Source of the DNA: Leptolyngbya sp. FACHB-321
Lineage (GTDB): Bacteria; Cyanobacteriota; Cyanobacteriia; Leptolyngbyales; Leptolyngbyaceae
Assembly (NCBI RefSeq): GCF_014695975.1
Contig: NZ_JACJPI010000065.1
Location: 62,001-126,000, forward strand
Length of the DNA stretch: 64,000 bases
Direction of reading: 5' to 3'
Part shown: piece by piece, positions 33 through 29,461 of the stretch
Numbering within the stretch: the stretch's first letter is position 1
Layout of the letters: each line of letters starts with the position of its first letter
The notes under the pieces: generated by a model
The model's input: only the letters and a program-made list of their open reading frames with translations
What the model was told of the DNA's origin: nothing
The model's database searches: none
Position numbers and translations under genes: made by a program

Positions 33-3000
33 ATGTCAACTGCACAAGCACCAGTGAGCACAGACAATCTTGACCCCAAGCAGCTTTTGAGCGTTCTGGC
101 AGAGGTTAAGAAGGGCAACTTCTCGGTACGAATGTCGATCGACCAAACAGGTATGGCTGGCAAAATTGCCGATACGCTCAACGACATCATTGAGATGAAT
201 GAGCGGTTAAGCAACGAATTAGAGCACGTTAGTAACGTCGTTGGTAAAGAAGGCAAGATCAGTGAACGTGCCTCTTTAGGCAACGCGAAAGGCTCCTGGA
301 AAGCCTGCGTAAACTCAGTCAACACGTTGGTTACAGATCTTGTGCAGCCCACAGCAGAGACCGCACGAGTAATTCGAGCGGTGGCAAATGGTGACCTCTC
401 GCAAACGATCGCCACCGAAATTGAAGGCAGACCTCTGCAAGGAGAATTCCTTCAAACGGCTCGCATTGTCAACACAATGGTGGATCAGCTTAACTCCTTC
501 GCTTCTGAAGTAACGCGGGTCGCGCGAGAAGTAGGTACTGAAGGCAAACTCGGCGTACAGGCAGAAGTCCGGGGCGTCGCAGGCACCTGGAAAGACCTCA
601 CCGACAGCGTGAACTCGATGGCAGGCAACCTGACCGCACAGGTACGAAACATTGCGGAAGTAACCACTGCGGTGGCGAATGGCGACCTGTCCAAAAAAAT
701 CACCGTGGATGTCAAAGGTGAAATTCTCGAGCTGAAAGACACGATCAACGTGATGGTGGATCAGCTCAACTCCTTTGCCTCTGAGGTCACGCGGGTGGCA
801 CGGGAAGTGGGTACCGAAGGCAAACTGGGTGTGCAGGCAGAAGTCAAAGGTGTCGCAGGCACCTGGAAAGACCTGACCGACAGCGTGAACCTGATGGCAG
901 GCAACCTGACCGCACAGGTACGAAACATTGCGGAAGTAACCACTGCGGTGGCGAATGGCGACCTGTCCAAAAAAATCACGGTGGATGTCAAAGGTGAAAT
1001 TCTCGAGCTGAAAAACACCGTCAACATCATGGTGGATCAGCTCAACTCCTTCGCCTCAGAAGTAACCAGGGTCGCGCGAGAAGTGGGCGCTGACGGCAAA
1101 CTGGGTGGTCAGGCAGAAGTCCGGGGTGTAGCAGGCACCTGGAAAGACCTGACGGACTCTGTAAACTTCATGGCAGGTAGTTTGACGGCGCAGGTGCGAA
1201 ACATTGCGGAAGTGACGACCGCTGTGGCAAACGGCGACCTGTCCAAAAAAATTACAGTGGATGTGAAAGGCGAAATTCTGGAGCTGAAGAACACGATCAA
1301 CACGATGGTGGATCAGCTCAACTCCTTCGCTTCTGAGGTCACGCGGGTCGCACGAGAAGTGGGTTCCGAAGGGAAACTGGGTGTGCAGGCACAAGTTCAG
1401 GGTGTAGCAGGCACTTGGAAAGACCTGACCGATAACGTGAACTCAATGGCAGGCAATTTGACGGGACAGGTACGAAATATTGCCGAAGTGGCAACGGCGA
1501 TCGCCAATGGTGACCTCTCCAAGAAAATCACGGTGGATGTCAAAGGCGAAATCCTGGAGCTAAAAAACACCATCAACATTATGGTGGATCAGCTTAACTC
1601 CTTCGCGTCTGAAGTGACGCGGGTCGCGCGGGAAGTGGGTTCCGAAGGCAAACTAGGTGGGCAAGCAGACGTAAAAGGCGTAGCAGGCACCTGGAAAGAC
1701 CTGACCGACTCCGTAAACTTCATGGCAGGCAGCTTGACTGCACAGGTACGAAACATTGCGGAAGTAACCACTGCGGTGGCGAATGGCGACCTGTCCAAAA
1801 AAATCACTGTGGATGTGAAAGGCGAAATCCTGGAGCTAAAAGACACGATCAACGTCATGGTGGATCAGCTCAACTCCTTCGCCTCTGAGGTGACGCGAGT
1901 GGCACGGGAAGTGGGTTCCGAAGGCAAACTGGGTGTGCAGGCAGACGTAAAAGGCGTAGCAGGCACCTGGAAAGACCTGACCGACAGTGTGAACTCGATG
2001 GCAGGCAACCTGACCGCACAGGTACGAAATATTGCCGAAGTGACGACCGCTGTGGCAAATGGCGACCTCTCCAAGAAAATTACGGTGCAGGTGAAAGGCG
2101 AAATTCTGGAGCTAAAAGACACCATCAACGTCATGGTCGATCAACTCAGCTCCTTTGCCTCAGAAGTAACCAGGGTCGCACGCGAAGTGGGCACGGAAGG
2201 CAAGCTGGGCGTACAAGCAGAGGTGCGAGGGGTTGCAGGCACCTGGAAAGACCTGACCGACAGTGTGAACTCCATGGCAGGCAACCTGACCGCACAGGTA
2301 CGAAATATTGCCGAAGTGACGACTGCTGTGGCAAACGGTGACCTCTCCAAGAAAATTACGGTGCAGGTGAAAGGCGAAATTCTGGAGCTAAAAGACACCA
2401 TCAACGTCATGGTCGATCAACTCAGCTCCTTTGCCTCAGAAGTAACTAGGGTCGCACGCGAAGTGGGTTCCGAAGGACGGCTGGGTGTGCAAGCCGATGT
2501 GCGTGGTGTAGCGGGTACATGGAAAGACCTGACCGACTCGGTGAACTTCATGGCGGGTAGCTTAACCGCACAAGTGCGGAACATTGCTGCTGTAACGACT
2601 GCTGTGGCAAACGGTGACCTGTCCAAGAAAATTACGGTAGATGTGAAAGGCGAAATTCTCGAGCTAAAAAACACCGTCAATACGATGGTGGATCAGCTCA
2701 ACTCTTTCGCCTCTGAAGTCACGCGGGTCGCACGCGAAGTGGGCACCGAAGGAAAACTCGGTGTGCAGGCAGAGGTGCGTGGTGTGGCAGGCACCTGGAA
2801 AGACCTGACCGACTCGGTGAACTTCATGGCAGGCTCACTCACAGCGCAAGTACGAAACATTGCCGAAGTGACGACTGCTGTGGCGAATGGCGATCTGTCG
2901 AAGAAAATTACCGTGGATGTGAAGGGCGAAATCCTGGAGCTAAAAAACACGATTAATACAATGGTGGATCAGCTCAGTTCCTTTGCCTCTGAAGTAACAC

Positions 3001-24351: not shown

Positions 24352-24896
24352 TCACGACTCCTTTATGGGAATGGCTGCAAGAGCCAGGAAGGGCAAAATT
24401 GCTGTCTATTTACTTCAAGATTATTCATAAACCGCCAGGATTTTCAAGAGCATGACGCTGTTTGTAAGGTCGATTTAACTACAACTTCTGAAGCCGCAGT
24501 GTTCTAACGGCGATCGCAGACTCTACCCCTTCCCGTTTGACACGCTACGAAGCAAGAGCCTCCTGCCGCAGCTTCCCTACCGTAAAGGGAGATTGAGGGG
24601 AAACAAAAGGGGAATCTGTTGCCAGCACTTTTTGCATTGGTACGGCTGGCTGCTGATCTCTAGCACGATCGCCCCTGACATTTTTCTGTCATATTCAGTC
24701 TTCACACTAAGGACATGGGTGAGATGAGTTGGGTCACAACAACTGCAACATCGCACCCAGATCTGCGAGACGGTTACACAACTGAAGCGATCAGTCGTTA
24801 GCTGTTAGTCACTCTCTAGCAGCTAACGCTTTCTCCATCACAACAGTAGAAATATCACAACAGTCGGACTATCACAGCAGTAGGAGCTAATGATTT
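24352..24896. other. Intergenic region with hairpin repeats
   Basis: This 545-bp spacer lies between divergent genes. It includes a fragment around 24575-24615 (CCCTACCGTAAAGGGAGATTGAGGGG) like common cyanobacterial low-complexity spacers. The CGTTAGCTGTTAG hairpin at 24796-24828 is listed separately. Two imperfect copies of TATCACAACAGT lie at 24850-24890 just before the DUF6152 gene. No ORF or RNA gene is seen. Confidence 0.45.
24796..24828. repeat. 13-bp inverted repeat of the TTAGCTG type
   Basis: CGTTAGCTGTTAG (24796-24808) pairs with CTAGCAGCTAACG (24816-24828) with one wobble across a 7-base loop. It is similar to the TAGCTGC repeats at 11385-11403. Confidence 0.6.
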
Positions 24897-25268
24897 ATGT
24901 CCAAACAAGGGCTGATGTACGCAGCAGTCGTAGCAGCATCGATCGCCACTCTGACGGTTGATGCTAATGAAGCCAGCGCTCATCATGGTTGGAGTGAATA
25001 CAACGATCAGAAGACGCTTAATGTGACGGGCAAAATTCAGCAGGTTAGTGCTGGGAACCCACACACAACAATTCGCTTGAAATCTGGGAATAAAGTCTGG
25101 ACGGCTGTTTTGGCGCCACCAACGCGGATGGAGCGACGAGGCTTGCCACAAGGGTCACTAAAGGCAGGACAAACAGTGAGATTAGTAGGGTATCCGCATC
25201 GTAGTGAAGCAAATGAGATGCGAGTGGAGCGGCTCATTGTCGGCGATCGCACCGTTGAACTGCGCTGA
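24897..25268 (+). CDS. DUF6152 family exported protein with His-His mature N-terminus
   Basis: This 123-residue protein has a signal peptide (MSKQGLMYAAVVAASIATLTVDANEASA) with an ASA cleavage site. The mature protein would start His29-His30 (HHGWSEYN). A small beta-barrel/OB-like domain follows (LNVTGKIQQVSAGNPHTTIRL, LKAGQTVRLVGYPH). Both the His-His start and the NPH motif (His56) are, to my knowledge, characteristic of DUF6152 proteins. The function is unknown. The stop overlaps the ATG of the next gene by one base (TGATG), which indicates translational coupling. GTAGGAGC before the start is a good ribosome-binding site. Location is periplasmic. Confidence 0.8.
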   Translation: MSKQGLMYAAVVAASIATLTVDANEASAHHGWSEYNDQKTLNVTGKIQQVSAGNPHTTIRLKSGNKVWTAVLAPPTRMERRGLPQGSLKAGQTVRLVGYPHRSEANEMRVERLIVGDRTVELR

Positions 25269-25752
25269 TGCTGCTGGCGGTATCTGGCTGGCTATGGCTA
25301 GAACAAAGTGTTTTATCTCACACGATTCGCCAGTGGCTGTGGCTGTATCCGGCGATCGAGAGCCTGCATCTTTTAGGCTTGGCGCTACTGTTTGGGTCGA
25401 TCGTCATGTTTGATCTACGACTGTTAGGCTTCTCGCGTCAGCTCTGGATTACTGATATGGCGTGGCATTTGCTGCCCTGGGCATACCTGGGTTTTGCGAT
25501 CGCTGCTGTAACTGGTTTTTGTTGTTTGCGGTTGATGCCAACCAGCTTGCCACTAATCCTGCCTTCCGCCTCAAGCTACTGCTTATTACCGCGACTGGCA
25601 TCAATGCAGCGCTGTTTCACTTCCACTATCGCTCGGTTCGAATGTGGAATCGTGGGGTCGTGACTCCATGGACTGTACGAGCGATCGCTGTTGTCTCGCT
25701 GCTGCTCTGGGTAGCTGTCATTATCTGTGGTCGTTTGATTGCTTATATCTAA
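25268..25752 (+). pseudogene. DUF6644-like membrane protein, frameshifted
   Basis: The N-terminal half is read in one frame (LYPAIESLHLLGLALLFGSI, LPWAYLGFAIAAVTGF to about 25520). The C-terminal half is read in another (LLFAVDANQLATNPAFRLKL, then WTVRAIAVVSLLLWVAVII to 25752). Joining them needs one extra T in the T5 run at 25516-25520, giving TGF-LLFAVDANQ and an intact product of about 161 residues with four hydrophobic helices. Without it, translation ends at 25663 with an abnormal tail. A homopolymer sequencing error, a true mutation or programmed slippage are all possible. The gene is coupled to the DUF6152 gene by a one-base overlap. Function is unknown. Confidence 0.8.
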
Positions 25753-27467: not shown

Positions 27468-27553
27468 GGCGATCGTCAGCAAGTACCTGACGTTACAACA
27501 GTCATTCAGCTCTCAGTTACTTGACACAACACTATTCATTAGGAGAAAGCACC

Positions 27554-28270
27554 ATGCGTCTACAACAAAAAAGACAAAACATTGCACGCTTGCTCATTAT
27601 CGGTTTAAGCGCTGGAAGTCTGACATTAGCAGGCTGTGGACAGCAACGAGACAGTACTCAAGAGGGCGCTCAAGGCAACGCACAAGCTTCTACCCCTGCT
27701 GCCTCTGCCTCAACCCCTGCTGCTTCCGCCTCAACACCAGCAATGACCACAGCAGAACCAGCACCGGAAACGGCACAGCGACGACCCGATGTGGTTTATG
27801 TTCCAACCCCTAATGAGGTGGTTGCTCGAATGCTGGCATTAGCAAAGGTGAAAAACAACGACGTTATTTATGACTTGGGCAGTGGCGATGGTCGTATTGT
27901 CATCACGGCAGCTCAAAAGCTTGGTGCTAAAGGGGTCGGCATTGACATCGATCCCCAGCGCATTCAAGAGGCAAATGAAAATGCTCAAGCTGCAAAAGTG
28001 ACTGATCGCGTGGAGTTTCGCCAGCAAGACCTGTTTGAAACTGACTTAAGCCAGGCATCGGTCGTCACGCTCTATCTTCTACCTGATCTGAATTTGAAAC
28101 TGCGCCCCAAGCTCTTCAAGGAACTCAAGCCAGGAACGCGGGTTGTCTCCCACGACTTTGACATGGGTGATTGGAAGCCCGAACGGACTGAAAAAATTGA
28201 CGTTGGCGGTCGCCAACACACTGTCTACTACTGGGTGATCCCTGACGAAGTTCCTGCCAATTTACGGTAG
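27554..28270 (+). CDS. Lipoprotein-type class I SAM methyltransferase
   Basis: This 238-residue protein begins with a lipoprotein signal peptide (ARLLIIGLSAGSLTLAGCG) with lipobox LAGC. A low-complexity linker with three ASTPA units follows. A complete methyltransferase fold then shows VIYDLGSGDGRIVITAAQK (motif I), GVGIDIDPQRIQEANENA (acidic loop) and RVEFRQQDLFETDL. The ATG at 27554 is chosen for AGGAGAAAGC upstream; an earlier in-frame TTG-type start would spoil the signal peptide. Exported proteins of this kind (with VPTPNEVVARML) occur in many bacteria but have no established substrate. A SAM source outside the cytoplasm is not known. Confidence 0.85.
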   Translation: MRLQQKRQNIARLLIIGLSAGSLTLAGCGQQRDSTQEGAQGNAQASTPAASASTPAASASTPAMTTAEPAPETAQRRPDVVYVPTPNEVVARMLALAKVKNNDVIYDLGSGDGRIVITAAQKLGAKGVGIDIDPQRIQEANENAQAAKVTDRVEFRQQDLFETDLSQASVVTLYLLPDLNLKLRPKLFKELKPGTRVVSHDFDMGDWKPERTEKIDVGGRQHTVYYWVIPDEVPANLR

Positions 28271-28333: not shown

Positions 28334-29461
28334 ATGTCTCAACCTCTTTCGCGCAAATTGTCGCTGCAATCCCTGTCGTTATTGTCTATGGGTGCTCTTG
28401 GTGGACTGTTGGTCGGCACACAGTTTGTACCAACGAATGCGGTATCGACCCAACCGTCAATCGCCCAAATACCCTCTGCCCCGGTGACTGGTTCCGGTGA
28501 CAACTTCATTGCAGCAGTAGCTGATAAAACGGGTGCTGCTGTTGTGCGGATTGATTCTTCTCGCACCGTCCGTCGATCGCCCCAGTCGAATGGTCGTATG
28601 GTGCGGGGTAGCGGCTCTGGTTTCATTACCCAGGCAGATGGCTTGATTCTGACGAATGCTCATGTGGTGGATGGTGCTACCAGTGTCACCGTTACGCTTA
28701 AGGACGGACGCGAATTTACAGGGAAAGTTTTAGGCAAAGATACGCTGACGGATGTGGCAGTGGTGAAAATTCAGGCAACCAACTTACCCATCGCGCCGCT
28801 CGGCAACTCAGACCAAATCAAACCAGGCGAATGGGCGATCGCGATCGGCAATCCTCTTGGTTTAGATAACACGGTGACGGCTGGGATCATCAGTGGTACG
28901 GGACGATCGAGCGGCATTGTCGGCGCACCCGATAAGCGCGTTAGCTTCATCCAAACCGATGCCGCCATTAATCCAGGCAATTCTGGCGGTCCGTTGCTCA
29001 ACCAAAAAGGGCAGGTGATTGGCATGAATACTGCCATCATTGGTGGCGCTCAGGGGCTTGGGTTTGCCATCCCGATCAACCGAGCACAGCAAGTTGCTAG
29101 CCAATTGATTGCCAGCGGCAAGGTTGATCATCCGTACATCGGCGTGCAGATGACAAACCTGACTGCGGCGACAAAAGAAGCCTTGAACCAGGATGCCGAA
29201 TTGGGGACAACAGTCAAAGCCGATCAGGGTGTTGTCGTGGTGGGAATCGCACGTAGCTCACCCGCTGCCAGCGCCGGACTCAAAGCCGGAGACGTGATTC
29301 AATCGGTGAATGGGCGATCGGTCAAAACAGCCGATGACGTGCAGCAGGTGATTGAAGCTAGCAAAATTGGTGCTAGCTTGCCAATTCAGGTCGATCGCAA
29401 CGGTCAACCGCTTACTATCTCGGTTAGCCCAGGCGAATTTCCGACTCAAGCTCAGTCTTAA
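28334..29461 (+). CDS. HtrA/Deg-family serine protease (HhoA/HhoB/HtrA type)
   Basis: This 375-residue trypsin-like protease has an N-terminal signal or anchor (LSLLSMGALGGLLVGTQFV). The catalytic triad is visible as LTNAHVVDG (His), DTLTDVAVVKI (Asp) and INPGNSGGPLL (Ser). A single PDZ domain (about 270-370; SPAASAGLKAGDVIQSVNG) follows. One PDZ fits the cyanobacterial HtrA/HhoA/HhoB group, which handles misfolded or photodamaged periplasmic and thylakoid proteins. The paralogue cannot be assigned. AAGGAAACG upstream of the ATG serves as ribosome-binding site. It sits 63 bases after the exported methyltransferase and may be in its operon. Confidence 0.94.
   Translation: MSQPLSRKLSLQSLSLLSMGALGGLLVGTQFVPTNAVSTQPSIAQIPSAPVTGSGDNFIAAVADKTGAAVVRIDSSRTVRRSPQSNGRMVRGSGSGFITQADGLILTNAHVVDGATSVTVTLKDGREFTGKVLGKDTLTDVAVVKIQATNLPIAPLGNSDQIKPGEWAIAIGNPLGLDNTVTAGIISGTGRSSGIVGAPDKRVSFIQTDAAINPGNSGGPLLNQKGQVIGMNTAIIGGAQGLGFAIPINRAQQVASQLIASGKVDHPYIGVQMTNLTAATKEALNQDAELGTTVKADQGVVVVGIARSSPAASAGLKAGDVIQSVNGRSVKTADDVQQVIEASKIGASLPIQVDRNGQPLTISVSPGEFPTQAQS

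Follow-up and report, generated by a model that had tools for sequence, protein, structure and literature searches.

A conserved His-His pair at the predicted mature amino terminus of DUF6152 proteins: candidate exported metal binders on a predicted OB fold

Proteins of the DUF6152 family (PF19649) carry, as a hallmark of the whole family that comparison of homologues strongly supports, a His-His pair at the predicted mature N-terminus and one further, internal histidine. Our reading of this arrangement is that DUF6152 is an exported OB-fold metal binder, probably of Cu(II), that acts with a membrane partner of the DUF6644 family; we give it slightly better than even odds (a probability of about 0.52). 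The core of that reading, binding of some transition metal through the free N-terminus, we regard as likely; copper as the metal and its hand-over to DUF6644 are plausible. The gene from which the analysis starts lies in a 64,000-nucleotide stretch of Leptolyngbya sp. FACHB-321 DNA, referred to here as the window.

That gene (24897-25268, + strand) starts with ATG and encodes 123 amino acids, with a predicted mature protein of 95. It matches the Pfam DUF6152 profile at 48.5 bits (E 9.7e-13), above the cut-off of 27. The signal peptide predicted by the (-3,-1) rule covers residues 1-28 (24897-24980, +) and ends A-S-A at residues 26-28; the next two codons (24981-24986, +) specify His29-His30, which become His1-His2 of the mature protein. 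Residues 54-56 are N-P-H, with Pro55-His56 (codons at 25059-25064, +) becoming mature Pro27-His28, and Trp68 (25098-25100, +) is mature Trp40. The open reading frame thus bears out the original prediction of an ASA-ending signal peptide followed directly by two histidines. Beyond DUF6152, the protein matches DUF4131 alone, below threshold, in a Pfam search at E up to 0.1. The profile PF04234, which we take to be CopC, is not matched in that search, and PF11604, presumably CusF, is matched neither by the whole protein (E up to 0.1) nor by the mature form (E up to 1). A search of PDB sequences yielded no relatives of either DUF6152 or DUF6644, the best chance match having an E of 0.21.

Homologues were gathered by Pfam searches of 10 genomes picked from earlier loci, of 200 genomes from the phylum of a Massilia genome (17 positive), of 60 from the phylum of an acidobacterial genome (three positive) and of 60 from the order of another positive genome (four positive), the last two groups having been partly searched before. 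Cyanobacterial members came from protein or profile searches (9 of 97 and 12 of 388 genomes positive) and plasmid members from 8 of 32 matching plasmid records. A pattern scan of named genomes, from which the best 80 of 324 matches were retained, is kept apart: because one of the patterns contains AHHGW, these 80 primary matches were left out of the counts. The 168 other ORFs reduce to 123 under 90% identity, and to 114 when genes re-found in genomes selected via the pattern scan are removed as well. All of these sets were collected with queries (Pfam, profile and tblastn) that contain the His columns and that may miss divergent members without His-His.

The conservation of His-His and Pro-His in DUF6152 is far above chance, and the case for it is firmer than first described. 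In a 16-member alignment (A1), A28, H29, H30, P55 and H56 make up five of the eight invariant columns. The 123-member dereplicated set has H1-H2 in 121, P27 in 121, H28 in 122 and W40 in 114 sequences; for the 114-member set the corresponding numbers are 112, 112, 113 and 105, and when genes near-identical to pattern hits are also taken out, H1-H2 remains in 107 and H28 in 108 of 109. Going from 123 to 114 members alters neither the picture nor our odds. Just eight of 95 columns reach 90% in the 114-member set (H1, H2, G17, P27, H28, W40, G54 and G63), whose members span Cyanobacteria, Pseudomonadota and Acidobacteria; pairwise identity in the family falls to about 20%. An NPH motif had been noted in the original prediction; its proline and histidine are near-invariant, as the counts show, but the asparagine is less constant (93 of 114). 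An N-terminal histidine with a second conserved histidine is the layout of histidine-brace proteins; DUF6152 is predicted to begin with the first of these, and His28 (113 of 114) and His2 (112 of 114) are both conserved as further histidines.

The junction at which the signal peptide is expected to be cut is conserved in a way that bears on how the histidines might be used. The (-3,-1) rule is satisfied at His1 in 111 of 114 homologues (120 of 123 in the larger set), and alanine immediately precedes His1 in 107 of 114. In the 123-member set a hydrophobic core ends 4-12 residues ahead of His1 in 114 of the 121 sequences measured; across the junction the commonest residue accounts for 22-61% of each column from -5 to -2, for 94% at -1 (alanine), for 98% at +1 and +2 (histidine) and for 53% at +3. 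Conservation thus sets in exactly at the predicted cut, with little constraint through -2 and almost none of the variation left at -1, +1 and +2, the trace that one would expect of a functional free N-terminus. The His-His pair is lost in two members only, both of them degenerate cyanobacterial copies: one (L009) aligns Ala-Gln at positions 1-2 and Pro-Ile at 27-28, and the other (L010) has Asp-Glu at 1-2 and Leu-His at 27-28, with His28 retained. Separately, some precursors (L146, L148) appear by eye to carry Tat-like twin-arginine signal peptides, which would suggest export in a folded or metal-loaded state.

AlphaFold2 models the mature protein confidently (88 aligned sequences, mean pLDDT 93.4, pTM 0.85) as a five-stranded barrel with a helix between strands 3 and 4 (E13-23, E30-35, E38-43, H47-52, E65-73, E79-87), the arrangement of an OB fold. 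In structural comparison by VIA-align the matches listed, at Z 10.4 to 8.5, include PriB (Z 10.4; 76 residues aligned at rmsd 2.0), single-strand-binding proteins and others with an OB fold; having the OB fold in common with these proteins shows no function. His56, which had been expected in the barrel, does belong to a protein modelled as an OB barrel, but as mature His28 it is placed within no strand, at the end of the loop that joins strands 1 and 2. The first ten residues of the mature protein are modelled at a mean pLDDT of 80. Covariation analysis by mean-field DCA, with 190 distinct sequences as input (Neff 136), ranked the pair 2-28 third and 1-28 fourth, a signal that turned out to be driven by the two degenerate sequences and was discarded. 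When they are omitted, known hairpins account for 7 of the 40 top-ranked pairs, against an expected 1.5, and no pair between N-terminus and loop ranks higher than 8-26, at 35 (bootstrap 10-90% range 2 to 235). The DCA is counted as no evidence for convergence of the histidines.

Coupling to a DUF6644 membrane protein, the other element of the original prediction, is real, DUF6644 lying directly downstream of DUF6152 in 75 of 80 loci (the best 80 of 324 pattern-scan matches; it was not detected at L034, L042, L059, L060 and L088), but in the window itself the gene is broken. Its first part is an ORF at 25268-25663 (+), whose start codon shares one base with the stop codon of DUF6152 (TGATG), with a DUF6644 profile match over 25286-25537; the second part is an ORF at 25462-25752 (+), matched over 25507-25749. 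Against PF20349 they score 17.1 and 21.5 bits, below the cut-off of 27; against profile A4 they reach E 7.3e-30 (positions 8-91) and 2.2e-26 (positions 82-163), respectively. DNA alignment with L019 and L020 locates the frame break, which leaves the gene in two reading frames, near 25.52 kb. DUF6644 is unbroken in the same-genus genomes G293 and G296 (an intact same-genus copy scores 34.8 bits with PF20349), and the break could reflect either a mistake in the assembly or recent decay.

DUF6644 is one of two candidate partners. Within the 114-member set, 37 DUF6152 genes occur with DUF6644, 49 adjoin a gene for a secreted protein of what we call the P-D-L-x-G-x-W family, one has both and 29 have neither. 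Members of the P-D-L-x-G-x-W family (their loci include L103, L113, L122, L127, L129, L133 and L135) have two invariant cysteines; ten of them gave no Pfam match near cut-off and eight no NCBIfam match above cut-off. DUF6152 can be numerous: the acidobacterial-group genomes G367 and G798 have 21 and 34 matches. The presence of DUF6644 goes with the residues that follow the histidines. In a first dereplicated set of 76 members, which includes re-found genes, all 37 with DUF6644 have Gly at position 3 and an aromatic residue (Trp, Tyr or Phe) at position 4; among the 39 others two have Gly-Trp and two Gly-Thr. The link between glycine and DUF6644 is not absolute, since 5 of 44 DUF6644-linked members of the 123-member set have serine at position 3. 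His-His and His28 are kept in 37 of the 39 members that lack DUF6644, which argues that the DUF6152 site does not depend on this partner. Profile search did not find DUF6644 in the genomes that carry the two degenerate copies (G357 and G292); that both losses of His-His fall in such genomes points to a link between N-terminus and partner, with two events, which is few.

For DUF6644 itself AlphaFold2 gives a confident helical model (pLDDT 92.8) of membrane type, built around four long helices. R22, W26, P29, H35, D50, R52, K104, N114 and W149 are among the residues invariant in this family; another frequent histidine, H119, is not invariant, being Tyr in L020, and the model would put H35 and H119 near opposite helix ends. 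Basic loops of membrane proteins tend to be cytoplasmic (the positive-inside rule), and if this holds for the basic loop after the first long helix, H35 and E32 would face the periplasm, where they might form a docking place for DUF6152. In a 78-member tree the 14 DUF6644s from Cyanobacteria fall together as one group (support 95/85). A longer and different DUF6152, which also has His-His and Pro-His, adjoins another DUF6644 (L119) in Scytonema NIES-4073, the genome of L023.

A search for structural and distant sequence relatives of DUF6644 has yielded one lead. Foldseek against the PDB gave nothing at E up to 0.001, and a likeness to a cytochrome bd subunit (VIA Z 10.5, rmsd 3.0 over 131 residues) is in the range of unrelated helical bundles. 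Homology to CopD (PF05425) is unsupported: the profile-profile score of 13.9 is equalled by 28 of 150 shuffles. DUF2214 is matched by 36 of 73 DUF6644 members at E up to 1 (best 4.3e-6), and the comparison of the two profiles scores 23.5, reached by one of 150 shuffles, with H35 and K104 both aligned in none of the 150. A HemJ-like set, consisting of CopD-profile matches that we took for HemJ by a motif, scores 21.4, which none of 150 shuffles reached, although the highest value in a previous series of 60 was 21.9; both residues align with the HemJ-like His and Lys in 3 of 150. The DUF2214/HemJ-like proteins, which make up a separate Pfam family, share with DUF6644 a conserved early His and a later Lys, aligning with H35 and K104. 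We know of no OB-fold partner of these membrane proteins. Assignment of DUF6644 to a HemJ/DUF2214-like superfamily is a lead from profile comparison, not a membership.

The DUF6152-DUF6644 cassette has a scattered distribution among Cyanobacteria (12 of 388 genomes); in a Pfam search of 292 cyanobacterial genomes the source genome was the sole positive, the protein and profile searches having found more. An OmpR-type response regulator and a histidine kinase are encoded just upstream in 7 of 17 cyanobacterial loci (L021-L023, L025-L027 and L029), confirmed by Pfam at L021 and L029 (L173 and L029 being one place), and a histidine kinase lies at the locus edge in L005, L009 and L173. No His-rich periplasmic stretch is seen by eye in the adjoining sensor kinase. 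An M28 peptidase gene follows the cassette in 8 of the 17 (L021, L022, L023, L025-L027, L005 and L009, the last with a degenerate DUF6152), as does an HtrA gene in 8 of 17. The cluster at L021 (2204-8025), L022, L023, L025, L026 and L027 runs OmpR-type regulator, kinase, two tandem DUF6152 genes, DUF6644, M28 peptidase, HtrA. The window, too, has HtrA in syntenic position after two other genes (28334-29461, +; an HtrA/HhoA-type serine protease with Trypsin_2 and PDZ domains); between an amino acid permease gene and HtrA, 27521-28270 encodes a methyltransferase domain behind what looks by eye like a lipoprotein N-terminus. This context suggests a role in envelope maintenance, compatible with copper stress and not specific to copper.

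A 37-bp box upstream of the window gene (24675-24711, +) consists of two 11-bp repeats (CTGACATTTTT and CTGTCATATTC) followed by CACACTAAG; its core is CTGACA-N6-TGTCA, ahead of CACACTAAG. Repeats of 11 bp suit a regulator of the OmpR/PhoB type, and the box is a candidate response-regulator site. It is kept in three same-genus genomes amid otherwise diverged intergenic DNA, and of 20 distinct cyanobacterial loci 13, those of both degenerate copies included, have it 5' of DUF6152. A second copy, at 1451-1487 (-) of L009, directly precedes the M28 peptidase gene that adjoins the degenerate DUF6152; 2.85 Mb of partly overlapping loci held nothing more above threshold. With as many as 3 mismatches tolerated in its first 22 bases, the box has a single match in the window. 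In 1,408,314 other bases (21% of the genome) the core has no exact match and seven matches with one mismatch, none of which scores as a full box. Three near-repeats of ATCACAACAGT just 5' of the start codon were dropped as a candidate, being incompletely kept in L019 and L020.

The Pfam scan of the wider neighbourhoods covered 120 of 175 neighbours of DUF6644-linked loci and 62 of 66 neighbours of the other set, the remainder having been dropped for size or as repeats, with neighbours chosen by a rough coding score that used general amino-acid frequencies. The two sets matched 175 and 94 families, and among the 25 commonest none for metal transport is prominent; one iron permease and two TonB receptors are listed. 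Genes for DsbB and for molybdenum hydroxylase-like proteins recur at 7 loci each, within Burkholderiales-type loci and as judged by reading the sequences (DsbB has a Pfam match in 3 of 120 scanned neighbours), and are read as shared synteny.

No paper that we found mentions DUF6152, DUF6644, PF19649 or PF20349, in agreement with the earlier statement that DUF6152 has no known function, and none combines OB-fold, N-terminal histidine, copper and periplasmic. For comparison there are several known systems. LPMO and CopC have beta-sandwich folds, nickel superoxide dismutase is helical, and CopC pairs with CopD, a polytopic inner-membrane partner. CusF, which binds copper in the periplasm and has a Trp close to the metal, shares the OB fold with DUF6152, but its Cu(I) site of Met, His and Trp residues is on the barrel and is not known to involve an N-terminal His, and its profile is unmatched here. 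CopC resembles DUF6152 as an exported small beta protein with an N-terminal His and a second His (PMC7529816, available text); DUF6152 differs in its OB fold and in having no CopC Pfam match, and the DUF6644-CopD profile score is within shuffle range. The available portions of PMC4182526 and PMC4284471 offered no link.

The closest parallels come from a study of proteins with an N-terminal His after the signal peptide, which bind Ni, Co or Cu (PMC12537917). DUF6152 is absent from the four families treated in the available text of that paper; these include two N-terminal-His domains fused to HupE permeases, with Kd values for Cu of 62-74 nM. The anglerases Ang-1/Ang-2, fused to the HupE/UreJ-2 permease, resemble DUF6152 in having a signal peptide, His1 (100%), a small beta domain and a permease partner; unlike DUF6152, they are single polypeptides with an Ig-like beta-sandwich and a single His plus Asn or Asp, and the Ang-2 permease is modelled with eight helices where DUF6644 has four (PMC12537917). 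DUF4198 and DUF6702 likewise have His1 after a signal peptide and further conserved His (His1, His28 and His32 in the DUF6702 model), but His1 is conserved to 79% and 65%, respectively, as against 112 of 114 in DUF6152, they are, like the anglerases, beta-sandwich proteins, and the accessible part of PMC12537917 describes no fixed membrane partner for them.

We therefore favour the following scheme. Signal peptidase would cut after Ala28 and expose His1-His2, which with His28 may form a histidine-brace-like site; the metal bound there would be a transition metal, most likely Cu(II). In the branch that has DUF6644, soluble DUF6152 would catch the metal in the periplasm and dock on this four-helix protein, which might move the metal or exchange electrons with it. 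Many cyanobacteria have both genes in a cluster with an OmpR-type two-component system, M28 peptidase and HtrA, which is presumably regulated and may serve envelope maintenance. The best explanation likens DUF6152 and its membrane partner to CopC-CopD and to anglerase-HupE, with a fold of another kind.

Other readings of the same facts have to be weighed against this scheme. The site might hold a different metal (nickel, cobalt or zinc) as part of a sequestering or uptake module, supplying, for example, the neighbouring M28 metallopeptidase. The studied DUF4198 and DUF6702 do prefer Ni (Kd 18 nM and 5.6 pM; PMC12537917, available text) and an M28 gene follows the cassette in the eight cyanobacterial loci, but M28 is rare overall beside the pair (3 of 120 scanned neighbours), and three His ligands with a free amine should by general chemistry favour Cu(II); we consider this reading unlikely. 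A structural or export role for the conserved histidines, with no ligand bound, would fit their being kept across very different contexts. Yet three of the eight highly conserved columns of a family with identities this low are His, and two of these directly follow the predicted cut and are lost only in two degenerate, partnerless copies, and we rate such a role as quite improbable.

Two further alternatives bring in heme. HemJ is a b-type heme protein, and DUF6644, whose H35 and K104 co-align with the conserved His and Lys of HemJ-like and DUF2214 proteins, might be a heme-b protein of that kind, passing electrons to a copper centre in DUF6152 as part of an envelope oxidoreductase or oxygenase. 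This redox pair is distinctly unlikely in our judgement, given that H119 is not invariant, that H35 and H119 would sit near opposite helix ends, and that the metal proteins nearest in kind showed little oxidase activity (PMC12537917, available text). DUF6152 could also be a chaperone that binds heme or another ligand on its OB fold through the N-terminal histidines; the predicted fold, the predicted periplasmic location and the possible heme-protein partner would suit that role, which the near-invariant Ala-1/His+1 junction, pointing to use of the free amine, makes very improbable. CcmE, an OB-fold heme chaperone, binds through another residue, and no heme-maturation family is among the 25 most frequent neighbour families (cytochrome c' is matched in 4 and cytochrome b561 in 2 of 120 scanned neighbours).

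The metal-binding reading invites a broader proposal, which we put forward tentatively: DUF6152 would be an unrecognised and widespread class of N-terminal histidine-brace proteins on an OB fold, with either DUF6644 or the P-D-L-x-G-x-W secreted family as partner and reaching 34 copies in a single acidobacterial genome. Because three histidines are kept almost without exception, the idea can be tested directly with one purified 95-residue protein, and in cyanobacteria the upstream box and the two-component genes offer a route to the physiological signal. If the proposal is true, a histidine brace on an OB fold would mean that this site arose again, and two domains of unknown function would gain a role.
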